64,000 nucleotides of DNA from an uncultured Bacteroidales bacterium (GTDB taxonomy: Bacteria > Bacteroidota > Bacteroidia > Bacteroidales > Muribaculaceae): assembly GCA_902760865.1 (NCBI GenBank), contig CACWID010000003.1:62001-126000 (forward strand). The letters run 5' to 3'. How positions within the stretch are numbered: position 1 is the first letter of the stretch; every line of letters starts with the position of its first letter. Below are positions 5,658-60,069 of this stretch, piece after piece. The position numbers and the translations under genes are program-made. The notes under the pieces are model-generated. The model saw only the letters and a program-made list of their open reading frames with translations, was not told the DNA's origin and ran no database searches.

Positions 5658-5710
5658 GTTAGACCTTAGACATTAGACGTTAGACGTTAGACTTTAGACA
5701 TTAGACGTCA
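5658..5710. repeat. 7-bp tandem array TTAGACN, seven copies
   Basis: Consecutive units are TTAGACC, TTAGACA, TTAGACG, TTAGACG, TTAGACT, TTAGACA and TTAGACG. Six positions are fixed and the seventh varies. One inverted copy (AGTCTAAT) follows just downstream. It lies between the mmdB stop and the terminator. Confidence 0.9.
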
Positions 5711-5729
5711 AATAGTCTAATAGTAATTA

Positions 5730-5780
5730 GAGAATAGTTGATAGTTGTGGTTCTCAGCCCGCTATCAACTATTCTCTTTT
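5730..5780 (+). terminator. rho-independent terminator of the methylmalonyl-CoA decarboxylase operon
   Basis: A 15-bp perfect stem (5730-5744 with 5762-5776) and a 17-base loop, followed by TTTTATTG. Confidence 0.9.
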
Positions 5781-5843
5781 ATTGTTGTCTGCTAAATGGC
5801 AAAAAGTAAATGAGAGAAATTTGAAAATAGCAGATATTTGTTT

Positions 5844-5851
5844 TAACTTTG
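5844..5851 (+). promoter_or_regulatory. -7 element for the 5898 gene
   Basis: TAACTTTG fits TAnnTTTG. The start would leave a leader of about 40 bases before ATG 5898. Confidence 0.5.
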
Positions 5852-5897
5852 CGGAGGAAATTAATAAACATCAACAAATTATAAAAAGCGAGAGAAG

Positions 5898-6410
5898 ATG
5901 AAAAAGAACGTACTATTGGCCGTTTTGTTGGTGACGGCTTTCACCGATGGCGCTCAGGAGAAGATGCTGATCGCATTTCTTGACTGCGACCCACCGTGCT
6001 CCTACATCTTGAACAAACCCAGTGGGGCCACCGTCATGACGCTGTCCTACGATGAGCCATACCTGTTCACTCTGTCATCGCCTCAGGACGGCTGGTGGAA
6101 AATCAATGACCTGTGGAATGCAGCCGACGATGAGGATACGACATCGCTTGCGGGCTCTGACACGGGTGAGTATTGGATTCACTACTCGGCCATTGGCCTC
6201 GGCACGAGCAACTATGGCGGGCAAGAACTGCACCTGCGTGCCGCTCCAGACCCGGAAGCTGACATCGTGTTCACCTTCAATCAAGAGCTCATGCTCATGC
6301 CACTGGATGTCCAGGGCGACTGGGTGAAAGTCAAGGTGGATGGTGATGATATCATCGGATGGATTGAGGCCGAGTGGCTCTGCAGCAATCCGTTGACCAA
6401 CTGCTGCTGA
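5898..6410 (+). CDS. small secreted protein with a C-terminal bacterial SH3-like domain
   Basis: 170 residues. The N terminus (MKKNVLLAVLLVTAFTDG) is a short signal-peptide-like segment. The second half has the LHLRAAPDPEADIVFTF...GDWVKVKVDG..IGWIEAEWL pattern of SH3b domains: an R/A-P turn, then a W-V-K-V strand, then GWI. SH3b domains bind peptidoglycan or other proteins in the envelope. Several cysteines occur (CDPPC near the start; C-x6-CC at the end), so disulphides are possible in the periplasm or outside. No enzyme domain is visible. The next gene follows after 53 bases on the same strand and may be cotranscribed. Confidence 0.72.
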   Translation: MKKNVLLAVLLVTAFTDGAQEKMLIAFLDCDPPCSYILNKPSGATVMTLSYDEPYLFTLSSPQDGWWKINDLWNAADDEDTTSLAGSDTGEYWIHYSAIGLGTSNYGGQELHLRAAPDPEADIVFTFNQELMLMPLDVQGDWVKVKVDGDDIIGWIEAEWLCSNPLTNCC

Positions 6411-6463
6411 CGAGCGCACTACCATTTAACCAATTAGTAGATCATTTTAAAATATAGACAATC

Positions 6464-7024
6464 ATGAAATATCTTCGACTCATCCTTCTTGCTACTTGCA
6501 TGCTCGCTGTTCTTGCCGTAGCAGCCGAGCAACCCGACCCTGTCATCTCATCGATTCAGACCGCCTACCAGAAGGCCAAGGAATCCATGAAGAGGGATAA
6601 GAATCTGGGCAACGAAATGGTTACCACACTCGACTATACCCTACGCGGTAACGGCAAAACCACCGAGAAGCTCCACTTCTTCTACACCACCGAAACGGGC
6701 ACCTATTGGCTCGCCGAAGGCGATGACCGTGATCCGAATTTCAACTATTATCCTCTCTATTTCATTACCCGCAATTACAATATCGGGAAAAAGAAATACT
6801 ACGAGGAGTACCTTTATGACGTAAACCAGAGGCTGATATTTGCTTTAACACAAGACTATGATGAGAATGGCAAGCGCTTTGACCGCCGCTTCTATTTCCA
6901 GGACGGAAGCATCTACCACGTCATCGGTCCAGAGCCCACCGCCTTCATGGTGGATAATGTCATCTATCAAGCCAACGAACTGAGACTCGCCTTTGACTGG
7001 ATCATAAGAAATCCCAAGGAATAG
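6464..7024 (+). CDS. secreted protein of unknown function
   Basis: 186 residues with a clear signal peptide (LILLATCMLAVLAVAAEQ). The mature part has no motif I recognise. It is rich in aromatic residues (FYTTETGTYWLAEGDD, PLYFITRNYNIGKKKYYEEY, RRFYFQDGSIYHVIG) spaced like beta strands of a lipocalin-like or meander sheet. Its place after the SH3b protein and before a strong convergent terminator suggests a two-gene unit of small envelope proteins. No function can be assigned from sequence alone. Confidence 0.7.
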   Translation: MKYLRLILLATCMLAVLAVAAEQPDPVISSIQTAYQKAKESMKRDKNLGNEMVTTLDYTLRGNGKTTEKLHFFYTTETGTYWLAEGDDRDPNFNYYPLYFITRNYNIGKKKYYEEYLYDVNQRLIFALTQDYDENGKRFDRRFYFQDGSIYHVIGPEPTAFMVDNVIYQANELRLAFDWIIRNPKE

Positions 7025-7047
7025 AACAATCAGCCCTAAAAAACAAA

Positions 7048-7100
7048 AATACAATAAAGACAATTCTTGTTGGTTATCAAGATTTTGTCTTTATTGTATT
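7048..7100. terminator. bidirectional terminator between 6464 (+) and smpB (-)
   Basis: A 16-bp perfect inverted repeat (7048-7063 with 7085-7100). The arms are A/T-rich at their outer ends, so a U-tract is formed in either direction. It sits between convergent genes. Confidence 0.88.
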
Positions 7101-7139
7101 ATTTGTTTTCTTGACCTTAGGTCTCAGTATGTCTGCGGG

Positions 7140-7610
7140 TTAGTGCTTGAACATGCGGTCAATGCTGCGCTTGTCCTCGCGCTCCTTGATGGACTGGCGC
7201 TTGTCGAACTGGCGCTTGCCTCGTGCAAGAGAGATGACCAGCTTGGCCAGCCCACGCTCGTTGATGAACAGACGCAACGGCACGATGGCGATACCGGGCT
7301 GCTGGGTGTCACGGGCGATGCGACGGATCTCCTTACGGTTAAGGAGCAGCTTGCGGTCGCGATGGGTCGTGTGATTATTGTATGAGCCGTAGCTGTACTC
7401 GGCAATGTACATGTTCTTGACCCAGACCTCGCCATTGATGACCATGCAATAGGTATCGGTCAAGCCGCACTTGCCTTGACGGATGGATTTGATCTCGGTA
7501 CCCGTGAGGACGATGCCCGCCGTGAAGGTCTCGAGAATCTCGTAGTCAAAGGTCGCCTTGCGGTTCTTGATATTGATGGTGTTGTTACTCTTATTGTTAT
7601 TTGAAGCCAT
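7140..7610 (-). CDS. smpB: SsrA-binding protein SmpB
   Basis: 156 residues, the standard length. It binds the tRNA-like domain of tmRNA and brings it to stalled ribosomes for trans-translation. The conserved N-terminal [18 protein letters not shown] with [11 protein letters not shown], the [13 protein letters not shown] core and the basic C-terminal tail ([18 protein letters not shown]) are all present. It lies 38 bases downstream of the YIP1 gene on the same strand, and both probably use the promoter at 8216-8223. Confidence 0.97.
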
Positions 7611-7648
7611 TTTTTCGTAAGTATTAATACGTTAAACAAGGCTACGCG

Positions 7649-8194
7649 TCAGATGACAAACAGTCCCAGCAGCGCCTCGAGGGCCAATGGTAATCCCAAC
7701 AGCAGCACAGACGAAATCACGACAAACCTGTTCACCTTGTCCTTATGAACAAAGAGATTGCCCGTGCCGCGATAGGCCATCCACGGCAAGTACAGCATCA
7801 GGAACAGCACCGGCGTGAAGTCGCTGGGCAGCAGGTTGCGCAATATCATCAGCAGGACGAGGAAGATCAGGTTGTAGAGGATGTAGTCGTTCAATCGCGC
7901 TGCCGAGCCCTGGGTCTTGACAAGCTCGGGATATGCTCCGCCAAGGAGATACACAATCATGTAGTAGCTGATGAAATAGGTCGAGAACATGACAATTCCC
8001 GTCATCAGCGACGTGGAAAACGGAATGGTCCTGTCATAAATCATGGGCACAAAGCATGACAGAGCCAGGACGAAAAGCAGGGGCAGGTAGGCACTGCGCA
8101 TCACCCTGCCTACCGGTATATTTGAGTCATTGATGACCTCCCAACCATAGCGCGGGGAGGTAATCACACAGAAGATATTATGCCAAATATTCAT
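7649..8194 (-). CDS. YIP1-family integral membrane protein
   Basis: 181 residues with about five hydrophobic segments. The pattern (N-terminal NIWHNIFCVITSPRYGWEVI amphipathic region, then helices at roughly 36-55, 65-90, 108-125 and 155-178) is that of bacterial YIP1-domain proteins, whose role is not well defined. A longer frame begins with TTG at 8218, but that TTG is part of a TATCTTTG -7 element (8216-8223). The start must therefore be ATG 8194, about 21 bases downstream of the element. It is probably cotranscribed with smpB. Confidence 0.75.
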   Translation of the reverse strand: MNIWHNIFCVITSPRYGWEVINDSNIPVGRVMRSAYLPLLFVLALSCFVPMIYDRTIPFSTSLMTGIVMFSTYFISYYMIVYLLGGAYPELVKTQGSAARLNDYILYNLIFLVLLMILRNLLPSDFTPVLFLMLYLPWMAYRGTGNLFVHKDKVNRFVVISSVLLLGLPLALEALLGLFVI

Positions 8195-8215
8195 GTCTGA
8201 AAAAAATTGCGGGTG

Positions 8216-8223
8216 CAAAGATA
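8216..8223 (-). promoter_or_regulatory. -7 element for YIP1-smpB
   Basis: The minus strand reads TATCTTTG followed by C, a perfect TAnnTTTG. It decides the YIP1 start (8194) over the TTG at 8218. Confidence 0.75.
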
Positions 8224-8282
8224 CAAAATTTACAAATATAAACCGTCACGGTATGAATTAATAATTGCAAAATCCGTGCCTG

Positions 8283-8316
8283 TTTGACGAATTCTTCAAA
8301 AATTTAATTACCTTTG
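8283..8316 (+). promoter_or_regulatory. promoter for the nitroreductase-like lipoprotein
   Basis: A TTTG box at 8283-8286 and TACCTTTG at 8309-8316 are separated by 22 bases. The leader to ATG 8373 is about 50 bases. Confidence 0.65.
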
Positions 8317-8372
8317 CGACAACAAAGTGCAAATCCGTTTATTTCTAACCCTTTAAACAACATGACAAAAAG

Positions 8373-9008
8373 ATGAAGAAATCACTGTTAGCTATCGCTG
8401 TTGCCCTGCTGGCGCTGGGCGCATGCACCACCCAGGGTGATGAGAACAAACAAGAGGCTGCAACGGCCGACAACGGCCAGGCCGCCATCGAGAACATCAT
8501 GACCCGCACGAGCATCCGCCAGTACAAGGACCAGCCCGTGGAGGATGAGAAAATCGACATCATGCTCAAGGCTGCCATGGCGGCTCCTACTGCCGTGAAC
8601 CTGCAGCCATGGCACTTCATTGTCATCACCGACAAGGAGACCATCGGCGTGCTCTCAGGTCGCCAGCCGACCAACGCTCCCCTGCTGATTGCAGTGTGTG
8701 GTGATACCGACAAGACCACGATGCCCGACGGCAACGGCAAGTTGCCCGACTTCTGGATTCAGGACGTGTCGGCAGCTACCGAGAATCTGCTTCTCGCCGC
8801 CCATGCGCTGGGCCTGGGTGCTGTCTGGACCGGCGTCTATCCCGTCATGGAGCGTACTGCCGAAGTCGCCAACGTGCTGAACTGCCCGAAGAACATCGTC
8901 CCGCTGGCCTTGGTGCGTGTGGGTTATCCTGACGAGGCACCTGCGCCTAAGGACAAATTCAAACAGGAGAACATCAGCTACAACAAGTTCGGCGGCAAGA
9001 AGGAGTGA
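8373..9008 (+). CDS. nitroreductase-family protein with a lipoprotein signal
   Basis: 211 residues. The N terminus (MKKSLLAIAVALLALGAC) is a lipoprotein signal with a lipobox LGAC, then an acidic spacer (about 20-38). The nitroreductase fold follows: RTSIRQYKDQPV (FMN-phosphate arginine region), APTAVNLQPWHFIVI (A-P-T-A-x-N-x-Q-P-W, the FMN site), AATENLLLAAHALGLGAVWTG, and a C-terminal VALVRVGYPDE-type strand. Such enzymes use FMN and NAD(P)H to reduce nitro groups, quinones or flavins and are normally cytoplasmic. Here the protein should be tethered to an envelope membrane, where no NAD(P)H is available, so its electron donor is unclear. It is flanked by its own promoter and, beyond a MITE-like element, a terminator. 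Confidence 0.85.
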   Translation: MKKSLLAIAVALLALGACTTQGDENKQEAATADNGQAAIENIMTRTSIRQYKDQPVEDEKIDIMLKAAMAAPTAVNLQPWHFIVITDKETIGVLSGRQPTNAPLLIAVCGDTDKTTMPDGNGKLPDFWIQDVSAATENLLLAAHALGLGAVWTGVYPVMERTAEVANVLNCPKNIVPLALVRVGYPDEAPAPKDKFKQENISYNKFGGKKE

Positions 9009-9034
9009 TTCACTCCCCGCTTGTAACCTTAACT

Positions 9035-9235
9035 AACGTGAGTTCACCGAAAGTAAGTTACTGATGCTCAATTCCTCCCCTAAGATAGGGGAGGTGGCGC
9101 GTAGCGCCGGAGGAGTATGATTCACCCTCGATGCATTTACTCTTGGGGCATCAACGCCCCCCAGCCCCCTCTAATCTTAGAGGGGGAGTTACTAACGCGC
9201 TGATTGACAATCAATCATTTCGTTGAACTCACGTT
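9035..9235. mobile_element. MITE-like element, 201 bp, with terminal inverted repeats
   Basis: The ends are 18-bp inverted repeats with one mismatch (9035-9052 and 9218-9235), the outer 12 bp perfect (AACGTGAGTTCA / TGAACTCACGTT). Inside are two further palindromes: CTCCCCTA...TAGGGGAG near 9075-9095, followed by GGCGCGTAGCGCC, and CCCCTCTAATCTTAGAGGGG near 9168-9186. There is no coding capacity. It lies between the nitroreductase stop and the shared terminator, so it has not broken a gene. Confidence 0.75.
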
Positions 9236-9244
9236 AACAACAAA

Positions 9245-9275
9245 GAACCCGCTTGGCAACGGCCAGGCGGGTTTC
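9245..9275. terminator. bidirectional terminator between nitroreductase (+) and the EpsG-like gene (-)
   Basis: AACCCGCTTGGC pairs with GCCAGGCGGGTT (one G-U) around a 4-base loop. It is flanked by A-rich and T-rich tracts on both sides, between convergent genes. Confidence 0.88.
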
Positions 9276-9286
9276 TTGTTGATGTT

Positions 9287-10447
9287 TCAGAAGAGGAAAG
9301 TGTGGTAGAGCTCGGGGACATAGATGCTGCCCGGAGCAAAATAGGCCTTGGCTATCTCGTAATAGACGTAGTAGAAGTTGAAGAACGCCGCGGCGGCAAA
9401 GGGCAGCCACAACCGGCGCTGCCACAAGTGATGCAGCAGGAAGCAGACCATGACCAGGAAGCAACTGCGCATCAATTCGCCCGGGCGCGTCAAGTACTGG
9501 GTAGTGTTGGCCAGCAGGTTGATATAGGCCATATAGAATACCGAGAACCGGAACAGCGCCGGCAGATACCTGTCACGGGCAAACTGCTGACGGATTGAAG
9601 GATAGTACCAGATGATCATCAGGCAGGTCAACAAGGGACACAGGCGAGCCGGACCCATGACATTACGGAAAGCGTACTCCAGGTTGTTGTTGACAAACAG
9701 ACGGTAATAATGGCCATAACCCAGGACCTGGGCAATGCTGCCGATGCGGTCAAACAGCCACTGGATCCACTGCGGGAAGGATCCCAGAACGAAGCACAGG
9801 CCCACAAGAGCAAACGCTATCCATCGGCGGTAGCCGCCAGGCACCTTGATGAGCGGGACAAAATAGAGCGGGACAAAGAGCACGCACATCTTGTGGAAAC
9901 AGACGGCGACCACGCTCAGCAGCAGGTAATACCAGAACTTGCGACGGACAATCAGCTCCACCATCAGCACGAAGAGCGCCTCAACGACCGACTGGCGCAC
10001 AAAGCCCATCCAGAAGATGAAGTAAGGGCCGAGAAACACGCACAGCGCCAGCCAGGGCAACAAGACCTTGCGATGCCTGAAGGCGTAGTACAGCAGTACT
10101 ACCTGCATGATGGCCCAAAGGGCAAAGTAGAGGGCAAAATGGCAGCCGGCACGGGCCATCACCTTGGTGACAAGTGCGAAGCCGGGCTCAAAGTTCACAC
10201 GGGAATACTGACCGATGGACTGCATGCTCACGTAGTAGCTGTAGTACATGTTGTAGTCCCAAGAGGTGAGCCAGCGGAACGAGGCCACCTGCACATAGAT
10301 GAACATCGCTGCCAGAATTTCCCATGAGGTGAAAGGCAACTCCCCTGCCCCGCCGGCCATGAGCCGCTGCTCGCGATGACCCACATGCCAACCCAGCCAT
10401 GCCATGATGGCTCCAGTACCGGTATAGACGACAAGGCTGAGAATCAT
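9287..10447 (-). CDS. EpsG-like polysaccharide biosynthesis membrane protein
   Basis: 386 residues with about ten to twelve hydrophobic helices. The N-terminal half (SFRWLTSWDYNMYYSYY, then VNFEPGFALVTKVMA and GFVRQSVVEALFVL) matches the EpsG family, whose members are thought to polymerise or flip exopolysaccharide or O-antigen repeat units in the inner membrane. Catalytic residues cannot be identified from sequence. It follows sprA by only 18 bases on the same strand, at the end of a five-gene run, which is unusual for a glycan polymerase: no glycosyltransferases lie nearby. A general O-antigen-ligase-like role is an alternative. Confidence 0.75.
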   Translation of the reverse strand: MILSLVVYTGTGAIMAWLGWHVGHREQRLMAGGAGELPFTSWEILAAMFIYVQVASFRWLTSWDYNMYYSYYVSMQSIGQYSRVNFEPGFALVTKVMARAGCHFALYFALWAIMQVVLLYYAFRHRKVLLPWLALCVFLGPYFIFWMGFVRQSVVEALFVLMVELIVRRKFWYYLLLSVVAVCFHKMCVLFVPLYFVPLIKVPGGYRRWIAFALVGLCFVLGSFPQWIQWLFDRIGSIAQVLGYGHYYRLFVNNNLEYAFRNVMGPARLCPLLTCLMIIWYYPSIRQQFARDRYLPALFRFSVFYMAYINLLANTTQYLTRPGELMRSCFLVMVCFLLHHLWQRRLWLPFAAAAFFNFYYVYYEIAKAYFAPGSIYVPELYHTFLF

Positions 10448-10465
10448 TGCTAGTAAAACCGTTTT

Positions 10466-26655: not shown

Positions 26656-26701
26656 ATTCTTTCAGCAGCCCTCCCCATCCTCCGATGGAGCGCCCACATA
26701 A

Positions 26702-26758
26702 TAGCTAAAGGCTAAAGGCTAACAGCTAAAGGCTAATAGCTAATAGCTAATGGCTAAA
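26702..26758. repeat. 7-bp tandem array, units of the form GCTAANN, eight copies
   Basis: Units are GCTAAAG, GCTAAAG, GCTAACA, GCTAAAG, GCTAATA, GCTAATA, GCTAATG and a final GCTAA. The array ends next to the proS stop codon (26759-26761). Confidence 0.92.
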
Positions 26759-28240
26759 TCAATAATTGCGTGCGAAGATCACACGACGCTTGCTGGGCTT
26801 GCCGCTATAGACGCACTTGCCCTCCTCCTCAGGAGCATCCAGAGGGATGCAGCGGATGGTCGCCTTAGTCTCTTCCTTGATCTTGTCCTCGGTCTCGCTG
26901 GTGCCGTCCCAGTGTGCCAGGATGAAGCCGCCCTTCTCGATCTGATCCTTGAATTCCTCCCAGGTGTCCACCTTGTAGGTCATGCGCTCACGCTGATTGA
27001 GGGCCTTGGTGTAGATATTCTGCTGGATTTCCTCGAGCAGGTCCTTGACACGGTTCTCGATGCCGTCGAGCTGCTCACTGCTCTTCTCGAGCGTGTCGCG
27101 GCGCATCACCTCGATAGTGCCGGACTCGATGTCACGGGCACCGAGCACAAGGCGAACGGGAACACCCTTGAGCTCGTAGTCAGCAAACTTGAAGCCCGGG
27201 CGCTTGTTATCGGCGTTGTCATACTTGACCGAGACGCCCATGCCGCGCAGGTTGGCAACGATGGGTTCTACCACCTTGTCGATCTGCTCCAGCTGGTCGT
27301 TGGTCTTGTAGACGGGAACGATGACAACCTGGATGGGAGCCAGATGCGGAGGCAGCACCAGACCGTTGTCGTCGCTGTGGGTCATGATCAGGGCACCCAT
27401 CAGGCGCGTCGATACACCCCACGACGTGGCCCACACGTCCTGCAGCTTGTTCTCCTTGTCGATGAACTTCACGTCAAAGGCCTTGGCGAAGTTCTGGCCC
27501 AGGAAGTGGCTCGTACCTGACTGCAGGGCCTTGCCGTCCTGCATCATGGCCTCGATGGTGTAGGTCTCGAGGGCACCGGCGAAGCGCTCATTCGGGGTCT
27601 TGATACCCTTGATGACGGGCACTGCCATGTATTTCTCGGCGAAGTCGGCATAGACGTTCAGCATCTCAATGGCCTTGGCCTCAGCCTCTTCCTTGGTAGC
27701 GTGGGCGGTGTGGCCCTCCTGCCACAGGAACTCGGCGGTGCGCAGGAACATGCGGGTGCGCATCTCCCAACGGAACACGTTGGCCCACTGGTTGATGAGC
27801 AGAGGCAGGTCACGGTAGCTGTTGATCCAGTTGCGGTAGGTGTTCCAGATGATGGTCTCGCTGGTGGGACGGATAACCAGTTCCTCCTCCAGGCGGGCAG
27901 CGGGGTCAACCACGACACCCTTGCCGTTCGGGTCATTCATCAGGCGGTAGTGGGTAACCACGGCGCACTCCTTGGCGAAGCCCTCCACATGGTCAGCCTC
28001 ACGGCTAAGGAACGACTTCGGGATGAGCAGGGGGAAATAAGCGTTCTGCACGCCCGTTGCCTTGAACATATCGTCCAGCTGGCGCTGCATCTTCTCCCAG
28101 ATTGCGTAGCCGTAGGGCTTGATGACCATACAACCGCGCACAGCCGACTGCTCAGCGAGATCGGCCTTCACTACCAGTTCATTATACCATTGAGAGTAAT
28201 TATCAGCTCTCTTCGTTAAATCCTTTAATTCTTTTGCCAT
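26759..28240 (-). CDS. proS: prolyl-tRNA synthetase, short eukaryote/archaea-type
   Basis: 493 residues, the length of ProRS lacking the bacterial editing insertion. It charges tRNA-Pro with proline. Class II motifs are visible: motif 2 in the [24 protein letters not shown] region and motif 3 in the [15 protein letters not shown] segment. The anticodon-binding domain ([10 protein letters not shown]...) and the C-terminal ProRS-type extension ending in FARNY are also present. This ProRS type is normal in Bacteroidota. A heptad array and then a strong terminator lie directly downstream. Confidence 0.97.
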
Positions 28241-28282: not shown

Positions 28283-28339
28283 ATACCTAATAATCTAAGG
28301 TCTAAAGTCTAACATCTAACGTCTAAAATCTAAAGTCTA
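28283..28339. repeat. 7-bp tandem array, units NNTCTAA, seven copies; supplies the stop codon of the OmpA-like gene
   Basis: Units from the right-hand part are AATCTAA, GGTCTAA, AGTCTAA, CATCTAA, CGTCTAA, AATCTAA and AGTCTAT. On the minus strand this is TTAGAC-like, the same motif as the array at 5658. The stop codon of the 28981-28337 gene (TAG, minus strand 28339-28337) lies in the last unit. Confidence 0.92.
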
Positions 28340-28981
28340 TTTCTCCTTAGAGATATGACTGATGTTGATGACGCCCTTCTTGGCCTGCTGCAGCATCGTC
28401 TTCTCGGGAACAAGATAGATTTCCAGGCGACGGTTGCGCTTGCGGTTCTCGACCGAGTTGTTGTCCACAATGGGGTCGGTATCGCCCAATGCATAGGGAA
28501 CAACATAGTCCACACTGCCGTGCTCGTCAAACCAGTCAAAGATTGCGTTCACGCGCTGGCGCGTCAGGTTGAGCGTATAGGCCTCGCTGCCCGTGTTGTC
28601 GCTGTGCATCACCAGGAGCATCTTGTAGAAACCGGGATTCTTGATCATCCTCAAGAAGGGCTCCAGGCGCTCCTCGCCAATCTTGTTCAGCACCGTGTCG
28701 TTGGCATTAAACAGCTGGCTGGCAGGAATGGTGATGACAATCACCTCGTCATCGCGCATGATTTCCACATCATAGTTCGATTTCTTGAACGCCACCGCCA
28801 TGTCATACTGGTATTCCTGTATTCTGTCGGCATGTTTATCGTTCTTGATTTCAGGCAGCTCAAGGTTCTCGTCAAGTGACAGGTCATAGATGTCATAATC
28901 GTCCTTGGCGTTAAGCGTCTGCTGCCCCGCCAGCATCAGCAGGGCCATCAAAGCAATGATGATATGTTTTGAACGTCGCAT
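28337..28981 (-). CDS. OmpA-family C-terminal domain protein
   Basis: 214 residues. A signal peptide (IIIALMALLMLAGQQTLNA) is followed by a linker and an OmpA-like peptidoglycan-binding domain (about residues 85-195): VITIPASQLFNANDTVL, a MLLVMHSDNTGSEAYTL segment in place of the usual G-H-T-D/S, NLTRQRVNAIFDWF, and the RKRNRRLEIYLVP strand. Such domains anchor envelope proteins to peptidoglycan. There is no beta-barrel. It lies 17 bases after rimM on the same strand. Confidence 0.88.
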   Translation of the reverse strand: MRRSKHIIIALMALLMLAGQQTLNAKDDYDIYDLSLDENLELPEIKNDKHADRIQEYQYDMAVAFKKSNYDVEIMRDDEVIVITIPASQLFNANDTVLNKIGEERLEPFLRMIKNPGFYKMLLVMHSDNTGSEAYTLNLTRQRVNAIFDWFDEHGSVDYVVPYALGDTDPIVDNNSVENRKRNRRLEIYLVPEKTMLQQAKKGVINISHISKEK

Positions 28982-29535: not shown

Positions 29536-29544
29536 AATAATTAC

Positions 29545-29618
29545 ACCTAAAACCTATCACCTAAAGTCTAATGTCTAGAATCTAATGTCTAGAATCTAAA
29601 GCCTAAAGTCTAAACCTA
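29545..29618. repeat. 7-bp tandem array, ten copies; supplies the stop codon of the DUF4290 gene
   Basis: Units are ACCTAAA, ACCTATC, ACCTAAA, GTCTAAT, GTCTAGA, ATCTAAT, GTCTAGA, ATCTAAA, GCCTAAA and GTCTAAA. The TAG stop of the 30212-29616 gene (minus strand) forms the end of the array. All ten units share CTA at positions 3-5. Confidence 0.92.
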
Positions 29619-30212
29619 CTTCTTTTTCTTCTTCTTGCCGGCAGGCTGTGCGGGCTTCACGATCTGGTATTCGTGCAGGTGGTGCGTCTCGGGGTCGAGA
29701 CGTATCACGCCATGGCTGTAGTGAGCCAGGTCACGGAAGATTTTAGCATCTTCCACATCCTCGTTGTTGATTTGGAAGATGAGCTTCTTCATGTGGTTGG
29801 CCAGAAGCATCACCAGGGCATCACGCTCCTCACCCTCGGGGTACTCGGCAGCGCGTGCAATCATACGCTCGATGTTCTTGCCGTAGTGACGGAACTTGAT
29901 GGGTTCCAGCTCATAGCGGATAGGATCGGGCTTGGTGTCCAGGTTCTCCTCCCTGATAATGTCGTCAAAGGGGAAATCCACGTCCAGCTGGAAACCGCTC
30001 ATGATCATCAGGTGGTCCCACAGCTTGTGCTGGTAGTCGGTCTCGGCACGCAGCAGCGGGAACATGTTGGCCATGTTCTGAACGATGGTATAAGCGCAGT
30101 GGGTGCGCTCGTCGCGGTTCTCGATGGTCAGGCAATGGTCCACCATCTGCTGTATGTTGCGCCCGTATTCGGGCAGCACCAGTTTCTTGAGTTGTGAGTT
30201 ATAGGTCAGCAT
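29616..30212 (-). CDS. DUF4290 family protein
   Basis: 198 residues from ATG 30212. The family is restricted to Bacteroidota and has no known function. The conserved opening LTYNSQLKKLVLPEYGRNIQ, the central FRHYGKNIERMI and the C-terminal lysine-rich tail (KKKKKK) are seen. A longer frame starts at 30251, but a TATTTTTG -7 element at 30219-30226 lies between the two starts, so translation from 30212 is favoured. Only six bases separate the element from the ATG, so the transcript would have almost no leader. Confidence 0.88.
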   Translation of the reverse strand: MLTYNSQLKKLVLPEYGRNIQQMVDHCLTIENRDERTHCAYTIVQNMANMFPLLRAETDYQHKLWDHLMIMSGFQLDVDFPFDDIIREENLDTKPDPIRYELEPIKFRHYGKNIERMIARAAEYPEGEERDALVMLLANHMKKLIFQINNEDVEDAKIFRDLAHYSHGVIRLDPETHHLHEYQIVKPAQPAGKKKKKK

Positions 30213-30218
30213 AGTTTG

Positions 30219-30226
30219 CAAAAATA
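30219..30226 (-). promoter_or_regulatory. -7 element directly before the DUF4290 start
   Basis: The minus strand reads TATTTTTG, C, then AAACT and ATG. It decides the start codon at 30212. Confidence 0.6.
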
Positions 30227-30273
30227 ATACATTTTTTTCAATTGCGGGCAATCATGTCCGCAATTTTGTTCTA

Positions 30274-39477: not shown

Positions 39478-39512
39478 ACTAGAAACTAGGGACTAGGGAC
39501 TAGAAACTAAAT
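39478..39512. repeat. 7-bp tandem array ACTAGAA/ACTAGGG, four to five copies
   Basis: Units are ACTAGAA, ACTAGGG, ACTAGGG, ACTAGAA and ACTAAAT. They are the same unit types as in the array at 4463-4487, 35 kb away. Confidence 0.88.
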
Positions 39513-45378: not shown

Positions 45379-45405
45379 CGTTCTTTCTGTTGATTGTAGC
45401 ATTAG

Positions 45406-45450
45406 GGTCCTTAAGGTCCTTAAGGTCTTTAAAGTCTTAACGACCCTAAC
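45406..45450. repeat. 9-bp tandem array, five copies
   Basis: Units are GGTCCTTAA, GGTCCTTAA, GGTCTTTAA, AGTCTTAAC and GACCCTAAC. It lies between the TonB-receptor-like stop (45460) and the GNAT start. Confidence 0.85.
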
Positions 45451-52272: not shown

Positions 52273-52293
52273 AACTAACGACTAGCGACTAAA
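52273..52293. repeat. short 7-bp array, three copies
   Basis: AACTAAC, GACTAGC and GACTAAA lie just before the lolA-like start. It shares the CTA core with the longer arrays. Confidence 0.55.
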
Positions 52294-53839: not shown

Positions 53840-53870
53840 CAGGCGGCCCGCACGGGGTCGCCTGATTTTT
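53840..53870. terminator. bidirectional terminator between DUF445 (+) and korB (-)
   Basis: CAGGCGGCCC pairs with GGGGTCGCCTG around a short loop. A tracts on the left and T tracts on the right (AAAAAAA, TTTTTT) give a U-run in both directions. Confidence 0.85.
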
Positions 53871-53889
53871 TCCATATCTGGGATTACGA

Positions 53890-54927
53890 TTACTCGACTT
53901 CCCAGGTGTCACCAGCCATGATGACGTCATGCAGGCAGGTGAAACCGTGAGCGGCCTTAGCCTGCTCAACCTGCTCAGCAACGGCGGTCTCATAGGTCGG
54001 AGCCTCGACTGAGCGGATGACGCCGAGGGCCACGGGCAGGTCAGTGCCGTCCATCTTTGCCAGCATCTGATGCAGGAAGTTGCTCTCGCAGTGGGCATCA
54101 TGCACCAGCACGTCATCGATGGTGTAGCCATCCTCGCCGATGGTCACAGCTTTAAGACCGAAACCGTCCTGTACGAGTCCGCGATTCATGTCCTTGCCAA
54201 AGATCATCTTCTCGCCATGCACGAGGTGGATCGTGCGGTCGGCGCGATGCTCACGGTCGGTGATGTAGTTGTGGATGCCGTTGTTGAAAATCATGCAGTT
54301 CTGCAGGATCTCGACCACCGAGCAACCCTTGTGATTGGCTGCTGCCATCATCACTTCCTGGCTGATGTCGAGCGCCACGTCGAGGCTGCGGGCAAAGAAG
54401 GTGCCACGAGCGCCGAAAGTCAATTCAGCGGGCACAAACGGGTCCTCGGTCGTGCCGTAGGGCGACGACTTGGACTTGAAGCCACGGGCACTCGTGGGAG
54501 AGAACTGACCCTTGGTAAGGCCATAGATGCGGTTGTTCAGCAACAACAGATTGACGTCGATATTGCGACGGACCTCGTGGATGAAGTGGTTACCGCCGAT
54601 AGCCAGACAGTCACCGTCACCGGAAATCTGCCATACCGTCATGTCGGGATTAGCAGTCTTGAAGCCGGTGGCCACTGCACCGCCACGTCCGTGAATGGTG
54701 TGGAAGGCATAGGTGCGGGTGTAGTAAGGCAGACGCGAGCTGCAACCGATACCCGAAATCACAGCAGTCTTCTCGGGAGCGATATCAAGCTGGGCCATGG
54801 CCTTGAGCAGGACATTGAGCACAGCGTGGTCACCACAACCGGGGCACCAGCGCACGGGCTGATTGTTCTTGTAGTCAAGCGGTTTGCGGGCCATTGAGGC
54901 CTGATTGCTATTATTGTTCTTTTCCAT
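53890..54927 (-). CDS. korB: 2-oxoacid:ferredoxin oxidoreductase, beta subunit
   Basis: 345 residues. This thiamine-diphosphate subunit has RWCPGCGDHAVLN, GIGCSSRLPYY and the GDGDCLAIGGNHF metal/ThDP motif, ending in an NNRIYGLTKGQFSPTS stretch. With KorA it oxidatively decarboxylates 2-oxoglutarate (or the reverse), passing electrons to ferredoxin. Its start overlaps the korA stop by one base. The alpha subunit architecture fits 2-oxoglutarate better than pyruvate, but the substrate is not certain. Confidence 0.92.
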   Translation of the reverse strand: MEKNNNSNQASMARKPLDYKNNQPVRWCPGCGDHAVLNVLLKAMAQLDIAPEKTAVISGIGCSSRLPYYTRTYAFHTIHGRGGAVATGFKTANPDMTVWQISGDGDCLAIGGNHFIHEVRRNIDVNLLLLNNRIYGLTKGQFSPTSARGFKSKSSPYGTTEDPFVPAELTFGARGTFFARSLDVALDISQEVMMAAANHKGCSVVEILQNCMIFNNGIHNYITDREHRADRTIHLVHGEKMIFGKDMNRGLVQDGFGLKAVTIGEDGYTIDDVLVHDAHCESNFLHQMLAKMDGTDLPVALGVIRSVEAPTYETAVAEQVEQAKAAHGFTCLHDVIMAGDTWEVE

Positions 54928-56786
54928 TACAATTCCTCCTCCATCATGATGTTTTTAACTCCGTCTACGATTTCCTGAACCAGGAACGGCTGACCCTGCA
55001 CCTTGTTGATGTGGCAGATGTTCAGGTTAGGTATCTTGCTCTGCAGGTAATCCGCAAGCTGGCCGTTGTTCAACTCGGCAACAATCACCGTCTTGAAGCG
55101 GCTCAGCAGCTCGGCGGTATTCTTGGGCAGCGGGTTGATATAGCGGATGTGGGTCATCGCGATCCTGAAGCCGTCCTCATTCAGACGATTGACGGCATCA
55201 AGGATGTGGCCATAGGTGCTACCCCAGCCCAGGATAATGGTATCGGCACCCGAGTCGCCCTTGAGCTTGAGCTCGGGGATGTCGTTGGCAACATTGGCAA
55301 TCTTCAGGCGACGGGTCTCGACCATGTGGGCATGGTTGATCGGGTCGTTGCTGAGCACACCCAGGTTGTAGTCCTTCTCCAGACCGCCGACCACGTGCTC
55401 CAGACCGGGAGTGCCGGGAATTGCCCAGTAGCGGATGCCCAGTGCATTACGCATGAACGGGGTCCACGTGGGTTTCAAGGCCTCGGGGACATAGTTGGGC
55501 TTGATGGCGGGATATTCACCCTCTTCGGGGATGCGCCATGCCGATGAACCGTTGGCGATGAAGGCATCGGTGAGCAGGATGACGGGGGTCATGTGCTCGA
55601 TGGCAAGACGTGCTGCCTGGAAGGCCATCTTGAAGCAGTCGGTAGGCGATGCTGCGGCCAGCACCACGAGGGGGCTCTCACCGCTGCGGCCATACAGGGC
55701 CTGGTTCAAGTCGGTCTGCTCGGTCTTCGTGGGAAGGCCGGTCGAGGGACCGCCGCGCTGCACATCAACGAGCACAAGGGGCAACTCGGCCATCACGGCC
55801 AGTCCCAGGGCTTCGCTCTTCAGTGCCAGGCCGGGGCCCGAGGTGGTGGTCACAGCCAGGTGGCCGGCAAATGCGGCACCGATGGCTGAGCAGATACCGC
55901 CGATCTCGTCCTCCATCTGGATGGCCTTGACGCCGAGGTCGCGGCGCTTGGCCAGCTCATGCAGGATGTCGGTGGCGGGGGTAATGGGATAGGAGCCCAG
56001 GAACAGGGGGCGTCCGCTCATCTCCGAGGCCATGATCAGACCCCAAGCGGTAGCCTTGTTGCCGCTCACGTCGGTATAGGTGCCAGGACGAACATCGTCG
56101 CTCTGGATACGGTAAGTCGAAACCGTGGCGTGGATATTGTGGCCATAGTTGTATCCGCCCTTGATAACCAACTCATTGGCGGCATAGACCTCGGGCTTCT
56201 CAGCAAACTTGGCCTTGAGGAACTTCAGCGGGGCTTCCATGGGACGGTTGAACAACCAGCACACCAGACCAAGGGCAAACATATTGCGACACTTGAGCTG
56301 TGCCTTCAAGTCCATACCGGTGTCCTTGAGGGCCTCTTTGACCATCGTGGTGATGGGGGCTTCAATGACCTGGGCCTTGAGGTTCAGCTCCTCATAGGGG
56401 TCATCGGTGGTATAAAGGGCCTTGTCCAGGCCTGCCTGGTTGAAGGTGTCGATATCAACAATAGCGGCACCGCCCTTGCGCAGGAACTGAGCATTCACCT
56501 TGAGCGCTGCGGGGTTCATAGCCACAAGCACATCACACTCGTCACCAGGGGTGTGGACACCATGACCGATGTGTACCTGGAAACCAGACACACCGCCCAG
56601 TGAACCCTGCGGGGCACGCACCTCGGCGGGGTAATCGGGGAACGTGGAAATACGGTCACCCAGACCCGCACTTACATTAGAGAAAATGTTGCCAGCCAGC
56701 TGCATACCGTCGCCGCTATCACCTGAAAAGCGCACGACAATACTCTGCCGGAACTGGACTTTAGCTTTTTCTGCTTTTTCTGCCAT
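54927..56786 (-). CDS. korA: 2-oxoacid:ferredoxin oxidoreductase, alpha (gamma-alpha fused) subunit
   Basis: 619 residues. The gamma domain is fused in front (VVRFSGDSGDGMQLAGNIFS, then YPAEVRAPQG), followed by the alpha domain (LGSYPITPATDILHELAK, MEDEIGGICSAIGAAFAG, TTTSGPGLALKSEALG). This gamma-alpha fusion is typical of KorA in Bacteroidota. It forms the pyruvate/2-oxoglutarate:ferredoxin oxidoreductase with KorB, a low-potential electron source in anaerobes. Two -7-like elements precede it, at 56834-56841 and at 56794-56801; the nearer one is only seven bases from the ATG. Confidence 0.94.
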   Translation of the reverse strand: MAEKAEKAKVQFRQSIVVRFSGDSGDGMQLAGNIFSNVSAGLGDRISTFPDYPAEVRAPQGSLGGVSGFQVHIGHGVHTPGDECDVLVAMNPAALKVNAQFLRKGGAAIVDIDTFNQAGLDKALYTTDDPYEELNLKAQVIEAPITTMVKEALKDTGMDLKAQLKCRNMFALGLVCWLFNRPMEAPLKFLKAKFAEKPEVYAANELVIKGGYNYGHNIHATVSTYRIQSDDVRPGTYTDVSGNKATAWGLIMASEMSGRPLFLGSYPITPATDILHELAKRRDLGVKAIQMEDEIGGICSAIGAAFAGHLAVTTTSGPGLALKSEALGLAVMAELPLVLVDVQRGGPSTGLPTKTEQTDLNQALYGRSGESPLVVLAAASPTDCFKMAFQAARLAIEHMTPVILLTDAFIANGSSAWRIPEEGEYPAIKPNYVPEALKPTWTPFMRNALGIRYWAIPGTPGLEHVVGGLEKDYNLGVLSNDPINHAHMVETRRLKIANVANDIPELKLKGDSGADTIILGWGSTYGHILDAVNRLNEDGFRIAMTHIRYINPLPKNTAELLSRFKTVIVAELNNGQLADYLQSKIPNLNICHINKVQGQPFLVQEIVDGVKNIMMEEEL

Positions 56787-56793
56787 TTCTTTG

Positions 56794-56841
56794 CAAAAAT
56801 ACTGTTGTAAATACCTGTTTCAAAAAACTTCTGCAAAAGTA
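56794..56841 (-). promoter_or_regulatory. two -7 elements for korAB
   Basis: On the minus strand TACTTTTG (56841-56834) and TATTTTTG (56801-56794) both match TAnnTTTG and are followed by C. The second is seven bases before ATG 56786. Confidence 0.55.
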
Positions 56842-57100
56842 CAACTTATTTCTGGCACTCAGGCATTTTTCGTGAATATTTTGTGAATATAATTGTCAAT
56901 TTTGCTTGATTTGGGGCCAGGAAGGGGGATTTCTCATGACATGCCGCTGATGATTCAGCATCAGGTCAAAAAAACGGGACATCGCCTGCATCATAAGTGG
57001 CAGGAGACTTACCTGACATCCATTTTTCTGCGACTTCAGAGACAAAAAATTAAGTGATATTTTTTTTATAGATTTTGCACTCTATTTTAAAAATAATTTT

Positions 57101-57108
57101 TAATTTTG
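57101..57108 (+). promoter_or_regulatory. -7 element and AT-rich leader for the 57215 gene
   Basis: TAATTTTG followed by C, with a TTTG at 57074-57077 upstream. The leader of about 100 bases is almost pure A/T. The rest of the gap, 56842-57100, shows no gene. Confidence 0.6.
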
Positions 57109-57214
57109 CCTTTTGAATGTTACATAAGGCAAGCAATGGTTATAATCCAGTATTTTTATAAGGATTTTTAGTTTTTAATTTTTATATATTATTAATTTTA
57201 AACATGTAATTTTT

Positions 57215-59890
57215 ATGAAAAAATTTTTTACTCTTCTAGTTACGATGGGTATGCTGGCCTTCACTTCGCAGGCTGCATGCTACATTGTGGGTAATGACCC
57301 CTTCGGCAACTGGAATCCGGCAGATGGTGTCGAGATGACGGAGAACGCCGACGGAAGCTACAGCTACACCGCCACCATCAACGGCTCGGTGTGGTTCGTA
57401 TTTTCTACCGGTCTTGATAGCGACTGGGATGTGTTCAACACTCAGTATCGTTATGGCCCCAGCACTGGCGCTGACGAGACCGTAGAGGCTGGCAATTGGG
57501 TTCACACCCAGCTGCAGGGCAACGGCAACGGTGCCTACAAGTTCACTGGTTCGGGCGACGACTATGTCTTCACTTTCATCCCCGCTGCCGGTATGTTCAA
57601 GATTGAAGGTGATGTTGATATCAAGCCCATCGAGGTTTATACTGTTGCCGGTACTCCCGTCAGCGTATTCGGTACCGAGTGGGATCCCAACAACACCGAG
57701 AACGACATGACCAAGAAGCCCAACGGCATGTATGAGCTGGAGAAATTCAACTGCCTGCTGAACGCTGGCTCTGAGCTGCAGTTCAAGGTGGTCGGTGATC
57801 GCGACTGGGGCAATGCATGGCCCGCCGAGAACCGCACCCTCACTGTTGAGCAGACCGGTTACTACAACCTGAAGTTCACCTTCGAGCCCAACTCGACCTT
57901 CTGTGGCGTACAGGCTTCGTTGGCTGGCACCGCTCCCGATCCCCGCACGGGTGACCTGTTCATCCTGGGTGAGGTTAACGGCAACACTTGGGCTCCCAAC
58001 GTTGCTCTGCAGATGACCACCACCGACCAGAACATCTACACCGCTCGTTTCACCACCAACGGTGAGAACCCTGACGAGGATGGCATCGGCTACAGCTACT
58101 TCTCATTTACCTCGATGCTGGGTACCGACTGGAGCGAGATCGACGTTTATCGTCTGGGCGCTGACCAGGCCGACTACCTGATCAGTGAGGATCAGATGGG
58201 CATCGAGCTGGCGCTCGGTGGGTTTGGTACCAACAACAGCTACAAGATTCCCGCCGGTGAGTATGAGGCAACCGTTAATCTGGATGCCATGACCCTGGTT
58301 ATCACCAAGGTTGAGAAGGAAATCACCGCTACCCCCGTTATCTCCTACGAGGTAACCGACGACGAGGTTATCATCACTGTAACCGGTGATGGCGAGATCC
58401 ACGTTTATGTTGACGGCGTTGAGGTTGAGAACCCCTACATCATTCCCCGTGGCGATGAGGACGTAACCATTACCGTTACCGCTACCGCTCAGGAGGATGG
58501 CAAGGAAATCAGCGAGACCGCTACCGAGGAGATCACCGTTCCTGCTAAGGAGGTTCCCGAGGTAACCGCTACCCCCGTTATCTCCTATGAGATTACCGAC
58601 GATGAGGTCATCATCACCGTAACCGGTGACGGTGAGGTTCACGTATATGTTGACGGTGTTGAGGTTGAGAACCCCTACACCATCGCTCGTGGCGAGGAAG
58701 ACGTAACCGTTGTTGTTACCGCTACCGCTCAGGAAGAGGGCAAGCTCATCAGCGAGACCGCTACCGAGGAGATCACCGTTCCTGCTAAGGAAACTGTTGA
58801 GCCCAGCGAGTATGAGATCGAGCCTATTTGGATCATCGACGACCTGTCATTCCTGAGCGTTGGCGACGTTCGTCAGGGCTTCGGTATGGATGGTAAGTTC
58901 TACATCAATGACAAGGCCAACCAGAAGGTTATCGTTATCGACGAGAACGGTCTGCTCAACACCGAGTATCCCGGTGGTGCCAACTGCGGTATCACCCGCG
59001 ACGAGGCCGGCAACCTGGTTGTCAGCAACGCCACCTTCCCCAATCCTTGGGCCGAGGCCACCATTAAGGTGATCAACCCCGAGACTAACGAGATGAAGGA
59101 ATACATCGTACCTGAGGAGTGTGGTCTGCAAGGCCGCTGCGACTTCCTGGGCTTTGCCAAGGGCAACCTCATGGAAGATGGTGTTATCTTCTTGACCGGC
59201 GGTACTGTGAATGCCACTCCCGAAACCAGCCCCTTCAACACTGGCGTGGTTATCCTGACCATCAGTGGTGGTGAGGTGAACGTCGATGAGTGCTACGAGG
59301 CCACCTGCGACGGTGTTTCTTCGACCACTTCGACTGTAATCAACTATTACACCGACCTCGCTGGCGAGGAGGCTCTGCTCTATGTAACCCGCAACGCTGC
59401 CCTCCAGAAGCTCGCTGCTGATGGAGACAACTTCGTTGCCCAAGCCTTGACTCTGCCTGGCAAGGGTGCTTGCAACGGTACATTCCCGTTCATCTGGGAC
59501 GAGAAGGAATTCTTCGTATACCCCACTCTGCCCAACTACTTCGACGGCTTCGCTGTAGCTGAAGCTGGCGCCGAAGCTCCCATTGTGGAGATTCCCGCAA
59601 TCGCTACTGCCAATGCCAATAGCTACCAGGCTAACTGGCTGAATGCCGAGGTAAACGAGAAGGACGTTACCATATATCAGTACTATCCCGGTGGTTACAT
59701 CGCCGTTTATCGCCTGTTCAAGCACGGCGAGGGTGGTGTTCAGGAGCTGATCAACGACAACAACAAGGTTGTTGCTGGTGTTCGCTACTACAACATCATG
59801 GGCCAGGAGATGACCGAGGTTAATGGTCTCACCATCATCGTTACCACCTACACCGACGGCAGCCAGAGCGCTGTTAAGGTGATCAAGTAA
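57215..59890 (+). CDS. large secreted modular protein with a type IX-like C-terminal tail
   Basis: 891 residues. The signal peptide is LLVTMGMLAFTSQA. The N-terminal 350 residues contain about three beta-sandwich segments (YIVGNDPFGNWNPADGVEMT, FGTEWDPNNTENDM and DLFILGEVNGNTWAPNVALQ) resembling SusE/SusF-type starch-binding modules. Residues 371-450 and 451-530 are two 80-residue beta repeats (TATPVISYE ... YVDGVEVENPY ... TATEEITVP) that recur once in the C10 protease at 35559. Residues about 540-850 look propeller-like (DKANQKVIVIDENG). The tail (GVRYYNIMGQEM then GLTIIVTTYTDG) resembles a type IX sorting domain. Glycan binding and surface location are inference. Codon use is very biased towards GTT, GCT, AAC and CGT, suggesting abundant expression. 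Confidence 0.85.
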   Translation: MKKFFTLLVTMGMLAFTSQAACYIVGNDPFGNWNPADGVEMTENADGSYSYTATINGSVWFVFSTGLDSDWDVFNTQYRYGPSTGADETVEAGNWVHTQLQGNGNGAYKFTGSGDDYVFTFIPAAGMFKIEGDVDIKPIEVYTVAGTPVSVFGTEWDPNNTENDMTKKPNGMYELEKFNCLLNAGSELQFKVVGDRDWGNAWPAENRTLTVEQTGYYNLKFTFEPNSTFCGVQASLAGTAPDPRTGDLFILGEVNGNTWAPNVALQMTTTDQNIYTARFTTNGENPDEDGIGYSYFSFTSMLGTDWSEIDVYRLGADQADYLISEDQMGIELALGGFGTNNSYKIPAGEYEATVNLDAMTLVITKVEKEITATPVISYEVTDDEVIITVTGDGEIHVYVDGVEVENPYIIPRGDEDVTITVTATAQEDGKEISETATEEITVPAKEVPEVTATPVISYEITDDEVIITVTGDGEVHVYVDGVEVENPYTIARGEEDVTVVVTATAQEEGKLISETATEEITVPAKETVEPSEYEIEPIWIIDDLSFLSVGDVRQGFGMDGKFYINDKANQKVIVIDENGLLNTEYPGGANCGITRDEAGNLVVSNATFPNPWAEATIKVINPETNEMKEYIVPEECGLQGRCDFLGFAKGNLMEDGVIFLTGGTVNATPETSPFNTGVVILTISGGEVNVDECYEATCDGVSSTTSTVINYYTDLAGEEALLYVTRNAALQKLAADGDNFVAQALTLPGKGACNGTFPFIWDEKEFFVYPTLPNYFDGFAVAEAGAEAPIVEIPAIATANANSYQANWLNAEVNEKDVTIYQYYPGGYIAVYRLFKHGEGGVQELINDNNKVVAGVRYYNIMGQEMTEVNGLTIIVTTYTDGSQSAVKVIK
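58325..58804 (+). repeat. two tandem 240-bp (80-codon) coding repeats
   Basis: 58325-58564 and 58565-58804 both begin ACCGCTACCCCCGTTATCTC and agree over most of their length. The period is exactly 240 bases and in frame. The few differences are mostly synonymous or conservative. Confidence 0.92.
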
Positions 59891-59916
59891 ACAAAACCTG
59901 TTTACAAGCCCAAATA

Positions 59917-59949
59917 AAAGAGGCGGCTCAAATGAGTCGCCTCTTTTTT
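59917..59949 (+). terminator. terminator after the 57215 gene
   Basis: A 14-bp stem (59917-59930 with 59933-59946, one G-U pair) and six or more T. Read on the opposite strand it also begins with an A-rich tract. Confidence 0.88.
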
Positions 59950-59993
59950 ATCTCACATAGCCTTTTACCCTAGAAAGATGCCCGCCATCCCAC

Positions 59994-60069
59994 TATCTTT
60001 GCCCCATCTAGAAAATCTAGTACATCTAGAACATCTAGAGCATCTAGTCAATCTAGAGCATCTAGAAAA
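59994..60069. repeat. 9-bp tandem array TCTAGNNNN, seven copies, after a -7-like element
   Basis: From 60007 the units are TCTAGAAAA, TCTAGTACA, TCTAGAACA, TCTAGAGCA, TCTAGTCAA, TCTAGAGCA and TCTAGAAAA. TATCTTTG then C at 59994-60002 on the plus strand matches a -7 element directly before the array. No plus-strand gene follows; recQ ends at 60157 on the minus strand. The gap 60070-60156 shows nothing else. Confidence 0.88.

Follow-up and report, generated by a model that had tools for sequence, protein, structure and literature searches.

Repeat arrays in the window

We analyzed a 64,000-nucleotide stretch of DNA (the window) from an uncultured bacterium of the Muribaculaceae (contig CACWID010000003.1 of assembly GCA_902760865.1). 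The source genome is 3.35 Mb in 61 contigs, and the window belongs to contig 3. Many of its intergenic gaps contain head-to-tail arrays with units of 7 or sometimes 9 nucleotides, and our subject is these arrays and their direction relative to the adjacent genes. A first-pass annotation had placed such arrays in the window, next to mmdB, ompA-like, and DUF4290 genes, among others. Tandem Repeats Finder reported arrays at or close to every one of its coordinates, as did direct inspection of the sequences, and Pfam confirmed the neighbors as OAD_beta (the mmdB of the annotation), OmpA, and DUF4290. No Rfam family reached its gathering score in the window. The arrays and their partners are as follows (positions are from Tandem Repeats Finder unless counted by hand):

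1141 to 1157, + strand: T-rich partial partner (TCATCAGTTTTCAGTTA) of the array at 1194 to 1219; counted by hand
1194 to 1219, + strand: AACTGAA array preceding the start (1232) of a carboxyl transferase gene
3924 to 3955, + strand: AACTGAA array, 9 nt ahead of a biotin-carrier gene (3965)
4413 to 4430, + strand: AGTTTCTAGTCCCTAGTT, the inverted partner of the array at 4443 to 4487, followed by GGCATCTGCC, a variant of an interior core (see below); counted by hand
4443 to 4487, + strand: ACTAGAA/ACTAGGG array preceding the OAD_beta gene (4498)
5659 to 5706, + strand: TTAGACN array, 6 nt past the stop codon of OAD_beta, with its G+T strand in sense
26699 to 26758, - strand: TTAGC-type array immediately past the stop of the prolyl-tRNA synthetase gene (26759 to 28240, minus strand)
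28287 to 28339, - strand: TTAGAY array that includes the in-register TAG stop of the OmpA-like gene (28337 to 28981, minus strand)
29547 to 29614, - strand: TTAGRY array immediately past the TAG stop of the DUF4290 gene (29616 to 30251, minus strand); there is no array at this gap in the related genomes G025 and G024
39478 to 39509, + strand: ACTAGAA/ACTAGGG array in the 52-nt gap that follows the DXP synthase gene
45402 to 45440, - strand: 9-bp array of TTAAGGNCC in a co-directional gap
52274 to 52292, + strand: weak ACTAACG array (about 2.7 copies, score 31)
60005 to 60069, no strand assigned: 9-bp array of the palindrome TCTAGA plus three bases, in a convergent gap

Period excess and unit vocabulary

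We took a census of periods 2 to 13 in 464 kb of the source genome (the window and another 400 kb, or 14% of the genome). Its 274 intergenic segments (73 kb) contained 38 lag-match segments of period 7 with scores of at least 12, along with 7 of period 8 and 16 of period 9, while each other period had just 0-2. Dinucleotide shuffles of the same DNA gave 0.0-0.2 segments (0.0 at period 7). Coding DNA, the other control, had none at periods 7 and 8, two at period 9, and four each at periods 6 and 12. Across the whole genome, TTAGACNTTAGACNTTAGAC was found at 67 + 44 places if up to two mismatches are allowed, versus 1 + 1 for the reversed control.

We then considered samples from ten species of the genus (1.57 Mb in total). 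In their non-coding DNA, arrays of period 7 or 14 numbered 107, while 13 arrays had period 8 and 23 had period 9; their coding DNA had just 3 arrays of period 7 or 14. (Array counts exclude scores below 12, or below 14 in the orientation counts and some pair counts for the 118 loci described below, as well as arrays that are mostly coding.) The excess of periods 7 and 9 that the first-pass annotation had proposed thus holds up in the samples of the source genome and of the genus, and the observation as a whole proved stronger than the annotation had it. Among the ten species, array density ranged from 40 in 69 kb of non-coding DNA, in the source genome, to none in 17 kb, in G011, whose 120-kb sample contains no array of period 7 or 14. 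Because similar arrays are found in these relatives and in many named isolates and metagenome-assembled genomes, a local assembly artefact is very unlikely.

Some arrays contain blocks of several units: 29567 to 29599 matches itself at 100% with a period of 14, and there are 21-bp blocks at 259974 to 260077 of contig C1. These longer periods imply that several units were duplicated at once.

Many unit families coexist in one genome, and the units had been described as unrelated. That was wrong: NCTRRNN describes 93 of the 107 arrays of period 7 or 14 in the genus. Because most units share this CTRR core, "different sequences with one period" is for the most part a single, loosely defined class of sequences in which some positions are free, and a single period across the units is less of a paradox. 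Within a subset of 61 arrays, the core is CTRA or CTAG in 58, as compared to a mean of 12 after shuffling the letters within each unit. Among the 538 units of these 93 arrays, the core was CTAA in 408, CTGA in 52, CTAG in 50, and CTGG in none. If the two positions varied independently, we would expect CTGG in 5.1 units, but its absence is only suggestive, as the units within an array are not independent and the expectation at the level of arrays is below 1. Most units, mainly NCTRRNN, lack runs of three or more G. Most of the 9-bp units consist of a palindromic hexamer plus three free nucleotides; by eye, the hexamer is TCTAGA or CTATAG in 13 of 19.

Turnover at orthologous gaps

Arrays are replaced rapidly: at one gap, different species have different units or none. 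We compared the gap upstream of the OAD_beta gene, by eye, in 27 loci from the genus (including the source genome). It contains an array in 12 of them and no array in the others, and at least five types of units occur there (ACTAG, ACTGA, ACTTACA/ACTAAAA, GCTAATN, and ACTAACG). Similarly, the gap at 3870 to 3964 has ACTGA units in the source genome, ACTAGAA/ACTAAAG in G006, ACTTACA/ACTAAAA in G018, and no array in six other species. The gap at 29536 to 29615 is 80 nt in the source genome and is practically missing in G025.

On a broader scale, TTAGAC arrays were found in 16 of 37 genomes from the genus and, outside it, in just 1 genome out of 24 from the order's other families. A reversed TTAGAC pattern, as a control, matched in only three genomes, all from other families.

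Direction relative to genes

The first-pass annotation missed that the arrays have a consistent direction. If we consider the nearest gene end within 60 nt, then across the genus, the CTRR strand is in sense at gene starts by 39:3, while at stops the reverse strand (TTAG) is in sense by 35:5 (P = 3 · 10−14, Fisher exact test of starts versus stops; some arrays are not independent). This count omits the 14 of 107 arrays without a CTRR majority as well as arrays over 60 nt from any gene, and both ratios and the Fisher test omit arrays with a CTAG majority as well. Arrays were not filtered by orientation, either here or in the analysis by distance below. Genes were called with our own codon-usage script, so the positions of starts are approximate, and arrays from one gap or one genome are not independent observations. 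CTGA arrays at starts were in sense in 11 of 11 cases. Convergent gaps obey the stop-side rule as well (10:0), and polarity is also seen in divergent gaps, with few cases.

To put both rules in one form, the G+T-rich strand of an array runs outward from the adjacent gene. We counted this by distance in the genus together with 118 loci from other genomes. Most arrays are within 15 nt of a gene, and at this distance the outward direction prevails by 91:9 at starts and by 78:27 at stops. The ratios are 24:5 and 12:7 at 16-40 nt, 12:8 and 5:7 at 41-80 nt, and 7:1 and 3:6 at 81-160 nt; beyond 160 nt from starts, the ratio is 4:5. Polarity peaks beside genes, and farther out it is weaker and uneven, with one small exception at starts.

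The 118 loci come from a scan for (AACTGAM)4 in one genome per species, and their number is a lower bound (at least 118 stretches). We have titles for 80 of the 118, which name Bacteroidota, Planctomycetes, Acidobacteria, Cyanobacteria, Poribacteria, Chloroflexi, Spartobacteria, Gamma- and Deltaproteobacteria, Omnitrophica, and Firmicutes. Before starts, ACTGA arrays are in sense by 54:1, and near stops, 25 are reversed and 12 are not; another 26 of the 118 arrays are over 60 nt from any gene. Of the eight co-directional exceptions listed for the stop side, six have the next start within 64 nt. These loci contain additional arrays, of period 7 (114), 8 (13), 9 (7), or 10 (4), but the loci were chosen for having an array of period 7.

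When two arrays share a gap, they usually face each other. This was so for all 14 pairs in the genus whose best period is 7 or 14 (11 pairs if only period 7 is scored). At lower cut-offs, 17 of 19 pairs in the genus and 51 of 82 pairs in the 118 loci face each other. Among adjacent pairs in the 118 loci with scores of at least 12, 38 are facing, 5 are back to back, and 14 have the same direction. Polarity is not a by-product of hairpins, because arrays without a complementary partner are still polar (18:1 at stops and 16:2 at starts).

Might the polarity be an illusion? Plain slippage without any direction, with a seven-base step set by the polymerase and with arrays tolerated in gaps, could leave the impression of polarity if genes were called incorrectly, if arrays shared ancestry, or if the local base composition were skewed. 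Heptanucleotides are common among the long simple sequence repeats (SSRs) of bacteria (Mrazek 2007, as cited in PMC4679880 and PMC4692102), and the multi-unit blocks fit with slippage. However, ordinary gaps after stops are A-rich (A 0.32, T 0.26), which is opposite to the orientation of the arrays, so we ruled out base composition as the cause of polarity near stops. A bias towards open frames cannot produce the polarity either, because CTAA arrays are strongly polar yet carry stop codons on both strands; and the 118 loci weaken the case for sense-strand stop codons as the sole cause. Furthermore, the polarity is seen again in the 118 loci and in publications that used other annotations. We consider non-directional slippage to be highly improbable.

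Another potential explanation is selection at the ends of mRNAs: A/C-rich repeats might be retained before starts for helping translation to initiate or for binding a regulator, other orientations might be purged, and arrays after stops might act on termination or on mRNA stability. The start rule is nearly absolute (11/11 for CTGA in the genus and 54:1 in the 118 loci); the units retain stop triplets, with no CTGG; and translational control has been proposed for TAACTGA repeats (MacGregor 2015, PMC4679880). But this explanation requires two opposite rules, for starts and for stops, and the stop-side rule extends to convergent gaps. It also has to contend with the A-rich composition of ordinary gaps after stops, and the arrays adjoin housekeeping genes and differ between close species. 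As for RRM proteins that might bind UAG or UUAG, PF00076 had no match in 37 genomes of the genus, although 16 of the 24 genomes from the order's other families had matches, so we rejected them. Selection at mRNA ends seems quite unlikely as the main cause.

Arrays and stop codons

Of 49 stop-side arrays in the genus, 19 touch or overlap the stop codon and another 23 start within 15 nt. The adjacent gene ends with TAG in 22 of the 49 cases, versus 157 of 1139 genes overall. In 15 of these 22 genes, the TAG is in register with the array, which is partly by construction where the array overlaps the stop. We also compared the protein ends for 18 genes that have an orthologue in the sample: in most cases the difference is two residues or fewer, and the exceptions are a lysine tail, one match with 18 unaligned residues, and one domain-level match. 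So arrays extend up to the last codon and are able to supply the stop.

The CTRR core provides a stop triplet in all three frames of one strand, and CTAA and CTAG do so for both strands. This would make it harmless for an array to reach into the end of a gene, but it does not explain the polarity. On the stop side, just 1 of 210 units in the genus is TCAG. (Counts of units by stop triplet omit 19 arrays that are off the expected orientation, 11 on the stop side and 8 on the start side, and are hence biased towards the rule.) Some of the scarcity of TCAG may arise because open reading frames (ORFs) read through stop-free arrays.

Selection on reading-frame phase had been suggested as a reason for the constant period. 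In its favor, stop triplets are kept and the array often supplies the neighbor's stop. But in the 118 loci, 25 of 37 stop-side ACTGA arrays have the stop-free orientation in sense, so frame phase cannot be the general rule.

Interior cores, hairpins, and candidate machinery

The spacers between facing arrays contain a core, GGCATCCGC, and, by eye, a second core that resembles GATTACC. Of 106 arrays, 18 have GGCATCCGC or its complement within 60 nt in the 3' direction of their G+T-rich strand, and 1 has it in the 5' direction. This core is 7.5 times denser in non-coding DNA (47 in 232 kb) than in coding DNA (36 in 1341 kb), with large differences between species.

These results raise the possibility that the arrays are the ends of composite mobile elements, each with a short core and two inward-facing heptamer arrays. 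A transposase, or ectopic gene conversion between arrays, would copy such elements whole into gene junctions. If an arm is always outermost, then any array in contact with a gene has to point outward, and the polarity would follow from geometry. The recurrence of interior cores at unrelated gaps suggests that whole elements are copied, and the position of the core and its non-coding enrichment make this a serious rival. Filled and empty sites at orthologous gaps and the facing pairs, in the genus and in the 118 loci, fit as well, as does the complementarity of arms in the genus, which is modestly above a permutation (5.29 versus 4.73 of 7, P = 0.015, 17 pairs). On the other hand, 87 of 106 arrays have no GGCATCCGC core within 60 nt, and the samples of G025, G034, and G011 contain no non-coding copy. 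In the 118 loci, the arms are not specifically complementary (P = 0.28, 38 pairs). Several gaps had hinted at hairpins as a general rule, but an array's own partner was in the top 5% of swapped partners for just 5 of 67 gaps. We saw no target-site duplications, by eye, at the orthologous gaps that we compared, and no transposase could be linked to the arrays. Composite elements seem fairly unlikely overall, although they are a strong rival.

We considered two candidate sources. Y1 transposases had no link to the arrays, and Y1_Tnp is also present in the array-free G011. We inspected the flanks of one Y1 gene of four, an IS200/RAYT-like transposase (L081:1483-1926): the adjoining repeats differ from the heptamers, with an upstream tandem repeat of about 70-80 bp that contains the hairpin GACGTGGGTGTCAACCCACG and is similar to repetitive extragenic palindromes. 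For Ku-dependent end joining, there were no matches to Ku in 61 genomes, while the control from B. subtilis was found, and we rejected this source.

Other repeats

At about 5730-5780 of the window, there is a terminator-like hairpin (GAGAATAGTTGATAGTTG...CTATCAACTATTCTCTTTT) whose stem resembles the heptamers, and similar stems lie beside the same gene in L052, L059, and L060. A dispersed palindrome around TGTAGAGACGCAAAATCTTGCGTCTCTACA is found in intergenic DNA of the source genome, with its 13-mers in 7-8 of 309 gaps (L031-L050 and the window), once between a GATTAG array and ACTGA units (C1 49149-49320). The convergent gap at 9009-9286 of the window is built of other dispersed palindromes, of the CCCCCTCTAATCTTAGAGGGGG and CTCCCCTAAGATAGGGGAG types; 4-7 gaps of the sample contain their 13-mers. 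A tandem repeat of 240 bp (about two copies, 88% match) lies at 58325-58791 of the window, within an ORF (57215-59890). Arrays in other families of the order differ in period: G060 has five 10-bp arrays in 20 kb (L120:10239-10562), and G046 has an 8-bp array of TAACAATT (L109:1-66).

A model for the arrays

We favor, tentatively and with somewhat less than even confidence, the view that these are heptanucleotide satellites of gene junctions that grow by directional slippage and are retained if they point away from genes. In this model, slipped or template-switched synthesis would lengthen arrays by seven bases at a time, with a preference for the 3' side of the G+T-rich strand. Arrays that are directed towards a gene would run into coding DNA and be lost, while outward ones would persist, and this loss would leave outward-running arrays at gene edges and facing pairs within gaps. 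The stop triplets of CTRR would let an array reach the last codon, and even provide the stop, without harm. Any regulatory role would be secondary. We favor this model because of the excess of period 7 in non-coding DNA, the 14- and 21-bp blocks, the turnover, the polarity regardless of gene orientation, the facing pairs, the in-register TAG stops, the position of the core, and the same polarity in the repeats described by Rehm and colleagues (see below).

Several observations weigh against directional slippage. It does not explain the narrow CTRR vocabulary, nor does it require most arrays to cluster within 15 nt of a gene. Growth at the tip might have left a gradient of unit identity from the gene outwards, but we found none (0.886, 0.890, and 0.875). 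Identical interior cores occur at unrelated gaps; the register of arrays with stop codons is partly built in by their overlap; and in the 118 loci, the bias returns at 81-160 nt from starts (7:1, few cases). The blocks, and the turnover as compared at the level of species, may reflect changes in copy number.

The model also does not explain why the step is seven bases, but as one genus includes both array-rich and array-poor species, this question is testable. The first-pass annotation had mentioned a dedicated generating process, and the polarity makes a possible process of this kind, with a direction, more interesting. In a bolder version, heptamer arrays across many phyla, whatever their unit, would be the product of one directional process that extends the G+T-rich strand outward from coding DNA, seven bases at a time. 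Such a process would be a bacterial counterpart of repeat addition and would constantly remake intergenic DNA. The enzyme is hypothetical, and we view this version as decidedly improbable.

Comparison with known repeats

As a kind, heptanucleotide intergenic repeats are already known. Elhai (2008) reportedly described small dispersed repeats within the heptamer arrays of cyanobacteria. Those are reported to be short dispersed cores among heptamer arrays, as here, but with different sequences; their cores reportedly measure 21-27 nt, share a structure with compensatory changes, and moved recently. Our analysis covered the enrichment and position of a 9-nt core, and our cores might be mobile.

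Mrazek (2007) found that heptanucleotides are a leading class among repeats of 5-11 nt, or long SSRs, in many bacteria, and suggested a connection with slippage of the polymerase (as cited in PMC4679880 and PMC4692102). The accounts in these citing papers mention neither polarity nor facing pairs, both of which we found.

Rehm et al. (2015, PMC4692102) described GGGAATC and GGGGA(C/T)T heptamers from Xanthomonas and Nostoc, which are mostly intergenic and near genes. These repeats resemble the arrays of the genus: the period is 7; they are nearer to the 5' neighboring ORF, whatever its orientation; there are convergent pairs in Xanthomonas; some overlap stop codons; and length and sequence vary between related species. 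However, their units can form G-quadruplexes, with one unit type per species described, while the CTRR units lack G-tracts and one genome holds many families of units. Also, 83% of positions were shared by two Xanthomonas, whereas gaps in the genus lose or swap arrays.

MacGregor (2015, PMC4679880) described direct repeats of TAACTGA in Beggiatoaceae, Cyanobacteria, and five Bacteroidetes. There are again similarities: forward ACTGA heptamers before starts and one set in reverse after a stop, units with stop codons in every frame, repeat-free gaps in relatives, and other heptamers in some of the same gaps. In that genome, one-base variants were rarely tandem, while here ACTGA is one of many unit families. 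The phyla in our 80 titles go beyond those in MacGregor's abstract. In one open-access library, which lacks most subscription journals, we did not find any text that joins the polarity of Rehm's repeats with the orientations of MacGregor's.

What is new, then, is the many unit families in one genome, their common CTRR core, and their fast replacement at orthologous gaps. Also, a polarity that had been described for quadruplex-forming repeats extends to unrelated units, both in the genus and in loci of several phyla. This speaks for a DNA-level cause. Earlier explanations differed from case to case, with G-quadruplexes invoked for Xanthomonas, translational control for Beggiatoa, and slippage in general. 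A rule that spans units, gene orientations, and distant genomes points instead to how arrays are made or filtered, and not to the function of any single sequence.

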